Position numbers and translations under genes: made by a program. Shown in pieces: positions 15,459 to 25,332 of a stretch of DNA of 28,690 nucleotides; position 1 is the stretch's first letter; each line of letters opens with the position of its first letter. This stretch comes from a virus, in the IMG/VR virus record IMGVR_UViG_3300034198_014098, positions 1 to 28,690 of that record; one strand, 5' to 3'. The notes beneath the pieces were generated by a model. The model did not search any database, was not told the origin of the DNA, and saw only the letters and a program-made list of their open reading frames with translations.

Positions 15459-18400
15459 TCAAGAACGCTTTTTGGCTTTCATGGCGACAGTCACCGCGCG
15501 ATCCACGGCAGCACCGCCCTTGTTCAGGCCGTATTCCTTCTGGCGCTCCAAGCCTTGCTGGATGCTTTCGCGCATACGCTGGTTGATTGGCTGCTGCTGT
15601 TTCTGTTCCTCGAAAAGCTTGCGCGCAGTGCTGCGCCCCATGGGATCAAGGGAATACGGGTGGACAATCTGACCGCCGACAGCAGGCTTGCCAAGCATTT
15701 TCTCGATAACGTCAGGCATGACGTAGTGGCGCTGCGCCAGAGGGACGTCGCCAAAATACTCGCCATGCGTGGGCCCGGTGTAGGTGGAATGTGTGAAAGA
15801 TGGCTCGTGACCAGAACCTTCCGCAGAAAGGCGTACAACGCGATGTCCAAACATGTTCCCAGAAACGCCCTTAACATCTGGGTCTGAGATCGCTGCACGC
15901 GTCACGCCGACTGCCGGAAAGCCTGCATCGCGCCAAGTTGATTTGTCCATGTGCTTGACAATGGAGCTACGGTGAGCGCCCGGAAGGCTTCTAGCGAACT
16001 CGCTTGCCGCTTTAGCGTTCAGGATACCGGGCCAATTTGCCATCAATTCAATAGCTTTTGCCTTGATTTTTGGCACCGCATGCTTGCCCGCACGCAGATC
16101 TTCATCAAATCTTTCGGCATCCTTGTGGCTAATTTCGCTGCCCGGAATTTGCGCCAAAAGGGCATCAATCATGTTGTGCGAGGAGTCCACCGCGCGTGGT
16201 CCCATTGGGGAGTAGACGCCGTACACAGGCCCCTTCTTTGAGGCTTCTTGGATGATTTTCTTGATTGCCGTAGTGTGGCCTGCGGCGTTTGCCCAAACCT
16301 GCCCCTTGTTGGGCTCCAGCATGTACTTTGGGCCCGCATGCAAATCGACCGGCCAAGCCAATTCTTTTTTGTTAATGTGCGTCAGGCGTCCAAGGTTGGA
16401 GCGATCGCCACCAAGGTTAATGAGCGTGCCGCCCTCGCCTTCTTTGACAAGGTCATCCCAAGAGCGGTGCCGCTTCTCAAGGGGTTCTACCCCGGGGATC
16501 GGAACGATTGTTGGGTCAACATCCGCGACATCATGGGGCTGTTTCACACCGTAAAAGCTGCCCGTGCCCGTTTGCCCCGACATAGGGGTCTTTAGCCTTT
16601 TTGAGATCCGCAGGGCCTCGCGAACCTTTTCTGGATCGTCCGAAAAGGGGCTGGCAGTGCGCTGCAAAGCCTCGCGAACTCTATCCATGTCCGGGCTGCC
16701 ACCGTCGCGAAAATGCTCATGCACCTCGTCGTCGCCAAGTCCATTCATGCCTATTGAGTGCATGATACGGCCCACATGGTGCGAGCGCATGAAGGCGTGG
16801 GGATCTTTAATTTCCCCACCAGTCGCAGCATGCTGCATGGCATGCATAACATCGTCGTGTGTAGTCTCCTCGTTGCCAGCCTTGTCCCACACCGCATGAT
16901 GGGCAAGGTGCTGGTAGTAAGGATCAAGATGCTCGGGCAGCGATAGGTTCATTGCCTCCTGCCGCCCCGCCAGCCGGTTAACGGCCTCAACACCCCCTGC
17001 GCCGCCCTTCTTGGCAATGTACTTTCCGGCCTCGCTGGTCGGACGCCCGGTGTGGAGGATGATTTGGCGGGCATCGAGCGTGGGCTGGTCTCCGCGCCCC
17101 ATCAACGAGGCAAAAAAGCCCGACTTGCTAGGGCCAATGCCGCGAATGTTTTTTGTAAACGCGCGCCACTCGTCTGGCGTACTGACTTTTTCTCGGCCAG
17201 CATGAATGAGTTCCGACACTTGCTTTTCGCTGCCCGGAAGGTTTTCGGCAGCCCATGTCAAGGCATCGGGGATATCCGTCTGGTGACGACCGAAGGGGGC
17301 CATAACCTGAATGGCGTTTTTTATTGCCTCGTGATGTACTTGCCCATGCTGGGCAGCGTCAAGGTAGGCCTGACCGGCGGGCGAATGCAGCCACTCACCA
17401 AAAGCGCCCTCGGGACGAATTTTGCCTTCCATTTCCTCGGGCAGATGCAGGCCAGCCTTCCGGACGCGATCAACGTCTGCGGCGCGGCGCTGAATGCTGG
17501 AACGCGTGATCGTGTAGGCTTTAATCAAGTCTCGGGCCGACAACCCCTCGCGCCCAGCGCGCTCCGCAATCCGATCCATAAAGTTGCCAAAATTGACAAC
17601 ATGCGATGGGATTTCTTTTAGGTCACCAAGGTCGTGCTGAACTTCGTGCAGCGGGCGCCAAGCCCAGTCAGAAATGTGCTGCGTCTCGTCGTCTTTGTGG
17701 TCTTCCTCAACTTCGCCACCCTGTTTGTAGGCAGGGAAGCCATTTTTGAGGATGCTCTCACGCATTTCAGGCGTAATTGGAAGGGAGTGCAGGCGCGTCT
17801 CGCGGGTCTGGCTTTCCCCTTTTTCATTGCTGGCAGGGACCGTAAGGCTTTCGCTGCCAATCTTGGCTTCAGATCCATGCATTTTGGCAAGACGAGCAAG
17901 GCGCTTCAGCAAAATATTGTCGTAAAAATCCTTCATCCCCTCGCCGCCGGAGCGAAGGTCGGTGCCCTCTAGGCGGTGGATATAATCATTGGGCTCAGTG
18001 GCGAGTAGGCGCTGAGTAATGTCTTTGCCAAAAAGCTGCTCAAGTTCGTCAGGAGTCGCTTTTTTACTCAAAACAACTTGGCCGTTATGGCCCTTTCCCT
18101 GCACAAGGCCCTCCCTGCCGGGAATAGGCATATATTCTAGCGCGCTGATATGCTTTTCAAGCCCGTACCGATCAGCCTGCTCCTGCCCCGGCGTAATAAG
18201 CATTTTGTCGTAGCCGCCCGCCGCTGCCTCGTGCAGGGCGCGCTTCATAAGCAAATCGGCCCAATTCTTAGTCTTTGCAATCAACGGATGATGCGGGACG
18301 CGCTCGCCTTTGGACGTATGCTCAAAGTCAAGATGTGGTTTCGAAGCAGTGTCGTTTACAGCCTCTGACCGGGTGGCGTGATCGTAAACATACTTGCCGG

Positions 18401-22203: not shown

Positions 22204-23925
22204 TCAAACCGAATAAAGTGGGGCTGGGTCGTTCCCGGGATACCCCAAAAGTGAATTTTCGCTGTCTCTTATCTCGCTTGCCCGCTCAAGCATGCCAAGA
22301 TCGCGCAAGTGGCGTATGGCCATGGACACGGTGTCGACCAAGTCGTCGTGCTTGCCCTTCGGAAACTGACCAACTTGCGTAATTACCTCTTGTGACCACG
22401 TAAAATCGGGCGAAAAAACCATGCCTTCAGAAAAAATGTGCTGAATAGAGTACAGTCGGCTCAATTTATCCATGCTTTTGGGGTCGGAAAGCTGCACGGC
22501 CCACCTAGAACCCGAATAAAGTCGCCGTAATTCCTGCGACACGGATATACCGGCTGCTTTATTTTCAATAATTAACTTATCAACTTTCATTCTTTTACAT
22601 GTATTGGCTACTTCGGTCGTCAATTCGTGGAATTCCAAGCGTTTCTGCCATGCATGCATGAGCATGACCTTTGGCGCGCCGTTGTTGTGCATCTCGAAGC
22701 GGTCAAGGGACTTGCCATCCTTGGCAAATGTCCGCGTAGCCTTGTTCATCGTGCTGCCAGAGAACACGCCCCAGACTGATAGGGCCGAATAGTCGTTGGC
22801 GGTGTTGAGGGTGTAGGCCGTGTCCAAGGACGCGATGATGAAATCCATCGGGGGGTAGACTGACTCCTCCCACATGTTCCACCAGTCGAGCTTGATGACG
22901 CCGCCGCCAGCAGGCTCAGGGCGCTGCTGAAGCTGCCCCGCAGAGCCGTAGGGGCCAAGAGCCCGCTCAAGGCGCTCAACCTCCCTGTCGCCAAAGCGCT
23001 CGGGCCAGAGGAGTGTGCCTTCGCGCCGCCCCAGTTCGTTCTCTGCGTCCCGGTTAACGGGCACGCGCTCGCCTGTGTCGGTAACCTTAACAAGAGGCTC
23101 ATCCTCGTCGTCGCAGCCGCGAGGATCTTCCCAGCCAATGACGGTCGAAGAGTGCCGCCGCCACTCGTAGCGCATAGGCAGGCAGAGGTGCGTCCACTCA
23201 CCCCGGTCATCATTTTCCAAAATGTGTCCGGTCAAATCGTTTTCAGCCAGACGCTGCTGTATGACGATCATGGCCCCAGTCTTCTGGTCGTTCAGGCGGG
23301 TACTCATTGTCCCGTCCCACCAGTCGATCGTGGCTTGAATGTTGGCGTCAGAAAATGCCTCGTTAGCCGCGTTCGCGTCATCGACCACGATGATCGAGCC
23401 GCCCTCGCCCGTTACGGCGGCGCCGACGGAGGTGATCAGGCGTTCACCATTTTGATCGTTTGAGAAGCGTGACTTAGTGTTTTGGTCGGAGTTCAAACGA
23501 AACCGCTCGCCCCAATACTTTTGATACCACGGGCTCTCGATCAGCTTGCGGCACTTGACGCTGTCGCGAAGCACAAGTTGGTTGGCGTAGGACGCCATCA
23601 GAAACTGGACCTGAGGCCCGGAAGTCGGGGATTTGTTGGGCTGGGCCCAAGTCCACGCCGGGAAGGCCACCGAAGTAATGGACGACTTCCCCATACGCGG
23701 GGGAATGTTGATCAGGAGCCTCTTGATGTCGCCATCGACGACAGCCTGCAAATGTTCAGCCACAGCCTCGATAGGCCAGCCATCCTTCCAGTCAGACGCG
23801 TCGATGTACGGCCAAGCGTCCCGCAGGAACATGTACAGGCTACTTTCGTAGTCGTACTTTTCCAGTTCCGCCATCTGCTTGGCAGCGTCGATGATCCTGC
23901 CGTCGAACTCGACGAGTTTGGTCAC
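22204..23925 (-). CDS. terL: Terminase large subunit
   Basis: This 573-aa packaging motor and nuclease cuts and pumps DNA through the portal. The ATPase domain has Walker A IPPRMGKSS at residues 74-82, Walker B SIIVVDD at 177-183, and the coupling motif QQRLAENDLTG at 223-233. The C-terminal RNase H-like nuclease has ASLDTAYT with Asp368, LIIENKAAG with Glu454, and KHDDLVDTV with Asp527, Asp528 and Asp531, so all expected acidic residues are present. The length is typical. The start is GTG at 23925, overlapping the preceding stop as GTGA, with GGAAGGAAG upstream. It lies in the usual place between the small-terminase candidate and the portal. Whether packaging is headful or cos cannot be told from this sequence. 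Confidence 0.96.
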   Translation of the reverse strand: MTKLVEFDGRIIDAAKQMAELEKYDYESSLYMFLRDAWPYIDASDWKDGWPIEAVAEHLQAVVDGDIKRLLINIPPRMGKSSITSVAFPAWTWAQPNKSPTSGPQVQFLMASYANQLVLRDSVKCRKLIESPWYQKYWGERFRLNSDQNTKSRFSNDQNGERLITSVGAAVTGEGGSIIVVDDANAANEAFSDANIQATIDWWDGTMSTRLNDQKTGAMIVIQQRLAENDLTGHILENDDRGEWTHLCLPMRYEWRRHSSTVIGWEDPRGCDDEDEPLVKVTDTGERVPVNRDAENELGRREGTLLWPERFGDREVERLERALGPYGSAGQLQQRPEPAGGGVIKLDWWNMWEESVYPPMDFIIASLDTAYTLNTANDYSALSVWGVFSGSTMNKATRTFAKDGKSLDRFEMHNNGAPKVMLMHAWQKRLEFHELTTEVANTCKRMKVDKLIIENKAAGISVSQELRRLYSGSRWAVQLSDPKSMDKLSRLYSIQHIFSEGMVFSPDFTWSQEVITQVGQFPKGKHDDLVDTVSMAIRHLRDLGMLERASEIRDSENSLLGYPGNDPAPLYSV

Positions 23926-24143
23926 CCAAACTTCCTTCCGGCCCAGATCAAGCCATCGACGGTCGGTTTCAATTCCAACCCCATGTGGACAGCCACGCGC
24001 TCAACCGGCATGTCAGTAGAGGCGCAATACCGGAACAAATCCTTCAACCGCGCCTCATGCTCGCGTGCGAGTCGATTTTTTTTCAGGACATTCTGAAGCT
24101 TCCTGTTGGCTTTGTCGCTCTCGACCTGATCTACTTTAATCAC
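23922..24143 (-). CDS. Small protein between terminase subunits, function unknown
   Basis: This 73-aa basic, helical protein has two Lys/Arg-rich helices (DKANRKLQNVLKKNRLAREH near residues 10-29) and a C-terminal part (MPVERVAVHMGLELKPTVDG) that could be a short helix-turn-helix. It starts with GTG inside a GTGA overlap with the upstream gene and ends in a GTGA overlap with the large terminase, so all three are likely co-translated. A helper of the terminase or a DNA-site reader is possible from context. I do not recognise a family. Confidence 0.68.
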   Translation of the reverse strand: MIKVDQVESDKANRKLQNVLKKNRLAREHEARLKDLFRYCASTDMPVERVAVHMGLELKPTVDGLIWAGRKFG

Positions 24144-24703
24144 ACTGTATCCCCATTAGATTGATCTTCTATCTGTACGTAATCTGCCTGCGGAATTTTG
24201 GACTGCTGGTCAACGACGACATCCTCCACCGCCTCAATCAGCACGGACGCCATGACGGAACGCAATGCCTCGCGCTGTTCCTCGGTCATGTCGTAGGGGC
24301 TAAGGGTCGTGGTGGCGATGTCGATCGCATTATTATTGGCATCGAGCAGCTTATGCTCAGACCGCTCCGAAAATGCGTCGGGGGCCAGACGCGACAGCAT
24401 GAACTTACCCGCCGCCACGCACTGCTTGTGGCCGGGGTCGAGGGCAATATCGCCCATCACTCCAGCTATCTGGCCCACAAGCGAGGTATTTCCAACCGCG
24501 TAGTCATCGTCGTAATATTTATCGAGCGTGGCGGCAGACATACCCACGATCTTGGCAATGCGGTCCTTGGGCAAGCCGCTGGCGCGGCAGCGCTCAATGA
24601 TGGCCCCGATCGCGGGGCTCACTGCGTGGTGCGCCTTGTTGGTGCGGCCAATGGCGGCAAGGACAGGGCTTTTTGGGGGAATGGGATCTCTAGCCATGGC
24701 CAT
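24140..24703 (-). CDS. Putative terminase small subunit
   Basis: This 187-aa protein has a helix-turn-helix near residues 44-67 (LPKDRIAKIVGMSAATLDKY) followed by helices containing AGKFMLSRLAPDAFSER. This is the arrangement of a small-terminase family in which an 'IA--IGIS--TL-K-Y' DNA-binding motif precedes an oligomerisation region. Its place as the first gene of the late operon, two genes before the large terminase, supports the call. The N-terminus is ambiguous: ATGs at 24703 and 24697, neither with a clear ribosome binding site. The upstream side is the A/T-rich origin-like region. It likely binds the packaging site on phage DNA. Confidence 0.75.
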   Translation of the reverse strand: MAMARDPIPPKSPVLAAIGRTNKAHHAVSPAIGAIIERCRASGLPKDRIAKIVGMSAATLDKYYDDDYAVGNTSLVGQIAGVMGDIALDPGHKQCVAAGKFMLSRLAPDAFSERSEHKLLDANNNAIDIATTTLSPYDMTEEQREALRSVMASVLIEAVEDVVVDQQSKIPQADYVQIEDQSNGDTV

Positions 24704-24825
24704 TATTTAGCGCGTGGGGGGATGGAGTGGTAGTGGGAAAATTCATGCCCGCAGATTAGTAAATTTGTCGATTTGCGGATTTTTGGGGAATTTTTTTGGA
24801 AAATTTGTAGGTCGGTTTTTTTCAC

Positions 24826-24893
24826 GATTTTTTGACGAATTTTTTGACGAATTTTTTTTGGGAATTTTTTTTGGGAATTTTTTTGGATTTTTT
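24826..24893. repeat. A/T-rich 12-14 bp repeats, candidate unwinding element
   Basis: Units are 24834-24845 and 24846-24859 (GACGAA plus six or eight T), 24860-24872 and 24873-24884 (GGGAA plus seven or eight T), and 24885-24893 (GGA plus T6), with a lead unit at 24826. A five-unit imperfect tandem array with one A/T-rich strand bias resembles the 13-mer repeats beside DnaA boxes in bacterial origins. Confidence 0.8.
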
Positions 24894-24950
24894 GGGGGTG
24901 TGCGGATTTTCGATGCAGCCACCTACGGTGTCTAGTGTTGCCTATTGTCA

Positions 24951-24967
24951 AGGGGGGTCACCCCCCT
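24951..24967. repeat. GC-rich hairpin next to the origin repeats
   Basis: AGGGGGG, loop TCA, CCCCCCT: a perfect 7-bp stem. On the minus strand TTGACA overlaps its downstream edge. It has no T run on either side, so a classic terminator is unlikely; it may be a structural element of the origin or a processing hairpin. Confidence 0.7.
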
Positions 24968-24976
24968 ATCCGGATT

Positions 24977-25090
24977 TATTTATCCACAGGTAAACTGCGC
25001 GTTAACTAAATGACCTTAACATATTTATCCACAGGTAAACTGCGCGTTAACTAAATGACCTTAACATATTTATCCACAGGTAATCTGCGC
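24977..25090. repeat. 45-bp direct repeats with three perfect DnaA boxes
   Basis: TATTTATCCACAGG occurs at 24977, 25022 and 25067, exactly 45 bp apart. Each contains the consensus DnaA box TTATCCACA (24980-24988, 25025-25033, 25070-25078). The first two units continue identically with TAAACTGCGCGTTAACTAAA and TGACC and contain the inverted pair GTTAA-N10-TTAAC. The third unit diverges after the box, with TAAT for TAAA, and turns into a hairpin. 45 bp is close to four helical turns, so boxes would lie on nearly the same face of the DNA. Confidence 0.92.
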
Positions 25091-25100
25091 GGGGCGCAGA
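25084..25100. repeat. GC hairpin at the end of the DnaA-box array
   Basis: TCTGCGC, loop GGG, GCGCAGA: a perfect 7-bp stem that begins where the third 45-bp unit loses similarity to the others. It lies 59 nt beyond the stop of the 57-aa gene on the minus strand, without a T run, so termination is uncertain. Confidence 0.65.
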
Positions 25101-25158
25101 CGCGACGATGCCCCCGGCGCGGTGGGCGTCGAGGGCATGCGTGCGGTAGGGGGTTGGG

Positions 25159-25332
25159 TTACTCGGCGATGATGCCCTGCTCGATCAGGTCCCGAGCGGT
25201 GCGCCCGAACCATCCCTGCAACTGGTAGGCGAGCCCGGTGTCGTGGAGGTGCTGCCAAGCCTCGACCAGTTGCTCGTGGTCGTCGGTGTCGATCCAGCCC
25301 TCTGCGAGCCCGGTGGCGGTGTAGTTGTCCAT
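25159..25332 (-). CDS. 57-aa conserved phage protein
   Basis: This short gene (57 codons) encodes MDNYTATGLAEGWIDTDDHE, then VEAWQHLHDTGLAYQLQGWF and GRTARDLIEQGIIAE. I recognise the pattern 'AWQ-L-DTG--W-LQG-(F/W)GR-A--LI--G' from small hypothetical proteins of many actinophages and proteobacterial phages. The function is unknown. The start overlaps the upstream stop by 1 nt (TGATG), so the genes are translationally coupled. Both neighbouring early genes share its high GC content and GC-ending codons, and a longer frame on the same strand in another phase (25070-25339) is Arg/Pro/His-rich and is a shadow. Confidence 0.85.
   Translation of the reverse strand: MDNYTATGLAEGWIDTDDHEQLVEAWQHLHDTGLAYQLQGWFGRTARDLIEQGIIAE

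Follow-up and report, generated by a model that had tools for sequence, protein, structure and literature searches.

Three DnaA boxes beside a conserved element that precedes terminase in an uncultivated tailed phage: a possible terminus or packaging region

The 28,690-base stretch analysed here (the window) is a fragment from an uncultivated tailed phage, whose own genome is incomplete. Its terminase genes lie to the left of a non-coding gap of 455 bp (24704-25158), with conserved small genes on the right (Table 1). Comparison with relatives revealed no conserved ORF in this gap, in agreement with the preliminary description, which had seen no convincing gene there. The same description had late and early transcription units meeting at this point; however, the flanking genes on both sides lie on the minus strand, so no divergent units meet at the gap. 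Searching viral contigs with the small terminase, or scanning them for the exact repeat, recovered the same phage and nothing else, and a scan of a genome collection returned three MAG contigs and no clear host.

Table 1. Genes and sequence features in and around the non-coding gap (window coordinates)
Feature	Position	Strand	Basis or remark
Terminase large subunit gene (TerL)	22204-23925	-	phrog_38, E 9e-82; query for finding relatives
Probable small terminase gene, encoding an HTH protein and adjoining TerL on its upstream side	24140-24703	-	Position; relatives in 11/13 compared contigs; profile matches weak
A/T-rich T-tract repeat array, 29% GC	24780-24899		Consists of about six TTTTTTGGGAA-type units, most of them spaced by 11-14
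Conserved element core; genome cut predicted in or beside it	24876-24966	+	nhmmer profile match, E 8.6e-12, with a near-identical contig of the window among the profile seeds
GC palindrome GGGGGG-TCA-CCCCCC (G-run block)	24952-24966		Sequence and comparison of relatives
45-bp direct repeat (two complete copies; the third limited to its first ~25 bp)	24977-25091	+	Sequence repeat
DnaA box 1 (TTATCCACA)	24980-24988	+	Exact consensus match
GTTAA-N10-TTAAC copy 1	25001-25020		Sequence
DnaA box 2 (TTATCCACA)	25025-25033	+	Exact consensus match
GTTAA-N10-TTAAC copy 2	25046-25065		Sequence
DnaA box 3 (TTATCCACA)	25070-25078	+	Exact consensus match
GC hairpin CTGCGC-GGG-GCGCAG	25085-25099		Sequence
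Small gene, DUF7417, right border of gap	25159-25332	-	Kept in four compared relatives

The three DnaA boxes of the gap, exactly 45 bp apart, are the only matches to TTWTNCACA in the whole window, for which a first-order Markov model predicts 0.13 exact boxes. Most of the features initially proposed were recovered at this locus: the three perfect boxes on one strand, the direct repeat carrying GTTAA-N10-TTAAC, and the two perfect GC hairpins. The A/T-rich array was found as well, although with about six units at a spacing of mostly 11-14 instead of five repeats of 12-14 bp. Because the boxes sit inside a 45-bp direct repeat (with identical copies at 24977-25021 and 25022-25066, and a third copy matching over its first ~25 bp only), they represent one box that was copied, and their number is therefore not independent evidence. 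The initial identification of the sites as DnaA boxes is well supported by the perfect consensus, by several relatives having arrays in this position, and by the manner in which the array units of relatives degenerate, with CACA being kept and position 5 being variable, as in DnaA boxes. The array in the window is predicted to bind DnaA.

Using TerL as the query, 80 related loci were found, and a profile built from the sequence to the left of the box arrays revealed an element of ~90 nt in most TerL relatives with enough upstream sequence, always in a single orientation and about 0.7-5.8 kb upstream of TerL. A packaging site is expected to be conserved and to keep its position next to terminase, and the element does both in these relatives. 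The right flank of the element is clade-specific. It carries DnaA boxes in the window and in L005-L008, L022, L054, L059, L066, L070/L071 and L158, and in the remaining relatives the element is kept next to other short repeats or hairpins that are not DnaA boxes. In several TerL relatives the DnaA-box arrays lie upstream of TerL in the same orientation as in the window, often with 11-bp spacing (TTATCCACAGG). On the TerL tree, the presence of boxes requires four gains or losses, at least three of which are backed by well-supported branches. The element is the constant part of the locus and the DnaA boxes are its variable flank; the T-tract array is not conserved in other clades. No such element was seen in the stretches read of the TerL-related isolates CRP-901, MW202675 and POR1, and HTVC027P has no boxes upstream of TerL.

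The exchange of short repeats at one and the same place beside the element could also mean that the sites in the window are small-terminase sites (cosB- or pac-like repeats), which would resemble the DnaA box without binding DnaA. The clade-specific repeats count for this explanation, because they are expected if the sites follow the terminase. However, an exact DnaA consensus is improbable by chance at the expectation given above, it recurs in many TerL clusters, and the units degenerate like DnaA boxes, so that small-terminase sites seem an improbable explanation of the array. In other clades (e.g. L041, L019, L031, L044 and L049), the right flank holds GTAACGTTAC palindromes, GAACAAAGC repeats and TGCACCGCAGC units, and in L158 the DnaA boxes are mixed with TGCACCGCA-type units. 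The G-run block of the element core varies too: its second run consists of C in some clades (GGGGGGTCACCCCCC) but of G in others (GGGGGGGTGCCGGGGGG), which looks like an inversion of one half.

The region had first been interpreted as a DnaA-dependent phage origin, in which DnaA would bind the three boxes and melt the T-tract array, and the helicase would load. Plasmid and chromosome origins (oriC, RK2 oriV, P1 oriR) combine DnaA boxes with A/T-rich repeats, and the window likewise has perfect boxes with an A/T-rich array nearby in a non-coding gap, although relatives lack this A/T-rich array. Box arrays elsewhere also adjoin the primase-polymerase gene, in 14 of 120 contigs among the matches listed. 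Unlike in those origins, the boxes of the window have no adjoining initiator gene, are not conserved in relatives, and are accompanied by a separate iteron array. The preliminary description had proposed looking for conserved boxes in related contigs and for a skew switch at the boxes. Many relatives in fact keep the element without boxes, and the GC-skew minima of six circular relatives do not lie at the element, although skew is weak evidence in phages and gets little weight as an origin test, because it follows gene direction.

A better origin candidate lies in the early region. A second contig of this phage, G013 (IMGVR_UViG_3300032271_001304, also L098), matches the window at 99.9% over 16,441 bp and extends 1.8 kb beyond the window end. 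At 17074-17318 it carries an iteron array with ten copies of GCTGAAG/CTTCAGC in about 240 bp plus an A/T-rich stretch, which corresponds to about 29323-29567 in window coordinates, beyond the window end and ~4.3 kb from the boxes. Seven of the eight near-complete genomes likewise have 10-13-bp units densely arrayed in the early region beyond the primase-polymerase gene, and these units are clade-specific in the relatives (e.g. GGCGGAGGTA/TACTTCCGCC or CACGGAAGTC). The primase-polymerase itself is encoded in 8 of 10 near-complete relatives, and in G002 (in which the conserved frames of the early ORFs were chosen by comparison) it is fused to an AAA_25/RepA-like helicase domain. Replication more likely starts at the iterons, which may constitute the origin of this phage group. 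With such a candidate elsewhere and with relatives keeping the element without boxes, the claim of an origin at the boxes appears unlikely to hold.

The relation between box arrays and terminase was also examined in at least 120 viral contigs that were gathered by paired boxes alone (TTATCCACA-NN-TTATCCACA). Among the matches listed, the array was located upstream of TerL in 46 of the 47 contigs with TerL within 4 kb (the exception being an array that overlaps the called TerL start by 19 bp), and these TerLs formed 13 clusters at 40% identity, although related phages in such counts are not independent and the link was first noticed in the same contig set as was counted. When ten neighbouring proteins were scanned, the terminase families matched were phrog_38 and phrog_2 among the matches listed. 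G/C runs, within the same listed matches, were enriched within 80 bp on the TerL side of the array (13 vs 2.9 expected) and not on its far side (3 vs 3.0 expected). Moreover, 8 of 54 whole contigs among the matches listed had the array at most 100 bp from a contig end (1.5 expected, p about 1e-4), and about nine TerL-side contigs end at the hairpin beside the element. This clustering is support rather than proof, because contig ends may reflect sequencing trouble at hairpins. DnaA-box arrays were further noted in the phage records PQ006418, PQ007401 and PQ006258 (4.7-5.6 kb only), one of them under an annotated replication initiator gene.

A location almost always upstream of terminase, as observed among the matches listed, is also the place of a promoter, and DnaA is also a transcription factor. 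The array might in that case belong to a DnaA-regulated promoter of the terminase operon, or else titrate host DnaA. However, two to five boxes are few for titration, and in T7-like phages (see below) the arrays belong to the terminal repeat instead of preceding terminase, so that we regard either function as very improbable.

Isolates were also searched with a box array, and the positions of exact boxes were counted per genome. Nearly all of these boxes were located at genome ends: in Shigella phage A7, all eight lie inside the 177-bp terminal repeat; in phiEap-1 and ZK1, 10 of 11 and 12 of 13 lie within about 200 bp and about 300 bp of the two ends, respectively; in T5-like Spc35, 10 of 11 lie in the terminal repeats; and in Arthrobacter phage EvePickles, both fall in the last 80 bp of the 53.4-kb linear record. 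The T7-like ends (Berlinvirus A7, Eapunavirus phiEap-1 and T7) resemble the window in having a short repeat array by a G/C-run block, less than about 200 bp from their end. The terminal arrays of A7 and phiEap-1 carry TTATCCACA boxes as in the window, with some phiEap-1 units reading CCTAAAG-TTATCCACA in reverse complement. Unlike in the window, however, TerL of these phages is transcribed toward the terminal repeat and does not lie downstream of it, and at the end of reference T7 there are CCTAAAG repeats together with a C-run/G-run palindrome, while the only box of T7 is located elsewhere. The right end of EvePickles and its kin follows the same order and orientation as the window (TGTGGATAA array, G-rich block, record end, small and then large terminase), although EvePickles is an unrelated phage of another host, its spacing and G-rich block differ, and its end is that given by the record. 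In Lactococcus phage phiL47 (NC_023574), the array is internal (24411-24716); it falls in a 2.2-kb non-coding gap flanked by divergent genes, has boxes on either strand, and may be a true origin. The open-access literature yielded nothing on DnaA boxes at the ends of T7-like phages or beside terminase genes.

The injection stop signal of T5 has been described as containing non-coding repeats, palindromes and DnaA boxes (PMC13250531). The window presents the same set of features, and the terminal repeats of T5-like phages carry box arrays, as seen in Spc35. The region could in that case be an entry brake, at which repeats, palindromes and boxes near the end would hold the DNA partway in injection. 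However, Spc35 differs from the window in that its array is buried kilobases deep in a 9.6-kb repeat, with pre-early genes on either side and no terminase next to it. Two-step DNA transfer is, to our knowledge, limited to T5-like phages, and we give such a brake little chance of being the main function here.

On balance, the region is probably, though by no means certainly, a terminus or packaging element of a tailed phage, with a DnaA-binding array near one genome end. This reading fits the observed boxes and the element that is fixed in position and orientation upstream of TerL while boxes occur in some clades only, and it leaves replication to the separate iteron array conserved in the same phage and most of its near-complete relatives. 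It also fits the concentration of exact boxes at the ends of isolates, the corresponding arrangement in EvePickles and, among the matches listed, the arrays upstream of TerL in many clusters, the G/C runs on the TerL side only and the arrays near contig ends. Against it stand the T7-like TerL direction, the internal array of phiL47, the TerL-related isolates without the element, and contig ends that may represent sequencing dropout at hairpins; moreover, genome ends in this phage group are predictions from sequence. Several relatives assemble as circles, and a circular assembly cannot reveal a direct terminal repeat.

In the terminus arrangement, the conserved GC-palindromic element immediately ahead of the terminase genes would serve for recognition and probably for cleavage, with a short array of host-DnaA boxes bordering it on its terminase-distal side. 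Once terminase has recognised the region, the cut would fall within or next to the conserved sequence to the left of the G-run (about 24880-24950), so that the box array would end up no more than about 200 bp from one end of the packaged genome. Bound DnaA would then most likely act at the genome end. It might assist packaging there as an accessory factor from the host, brake the entering DNA, as proposed for T5 (PMC13250531), or work on the joined ends at an early stage of infection.

DnaA boxes in a phage are commonly taken as the sign of an origin. In the sequences compared here, arrays of such boxes adjoin terminase genes or occur at genome ends in several unrelated groups, T7-like and T5-like phages among them. 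It is conceivable, if doubtful, that host DnaA is a general factor that has been recruited repeatedly at the ends of unrelated tailed phages. It would then act at the terminus, in packaging, in DNA entry or in the joining of ends, instead of initiating replication at an origin. If so, one explanation would cover both the DnaA boxes in the injection stop signal of T5 and the end repeats of T7-like phages, and origin calls from DnaA boxes alone would often be wrong in phages. Both DnaA binding and its role are directly testable in those T7-like and T5-like phages that infect E. coli or its relatives.

As a binder of the array, a stand-alone DnaA-domain protein was considered and rejected, since it was seen in G006 and G007 only, and in both of these the element is free of boxes. 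This 95-aa protein has a DnaA box-binding domain (PF08299) with the motif GRDHTTV and is encoded at L090:8736-9023 (plus strand; equal to G006:28736-29023) and also at G007:8372-8545, with its gene directly downstream of the primase-polymerase/helicase gene.
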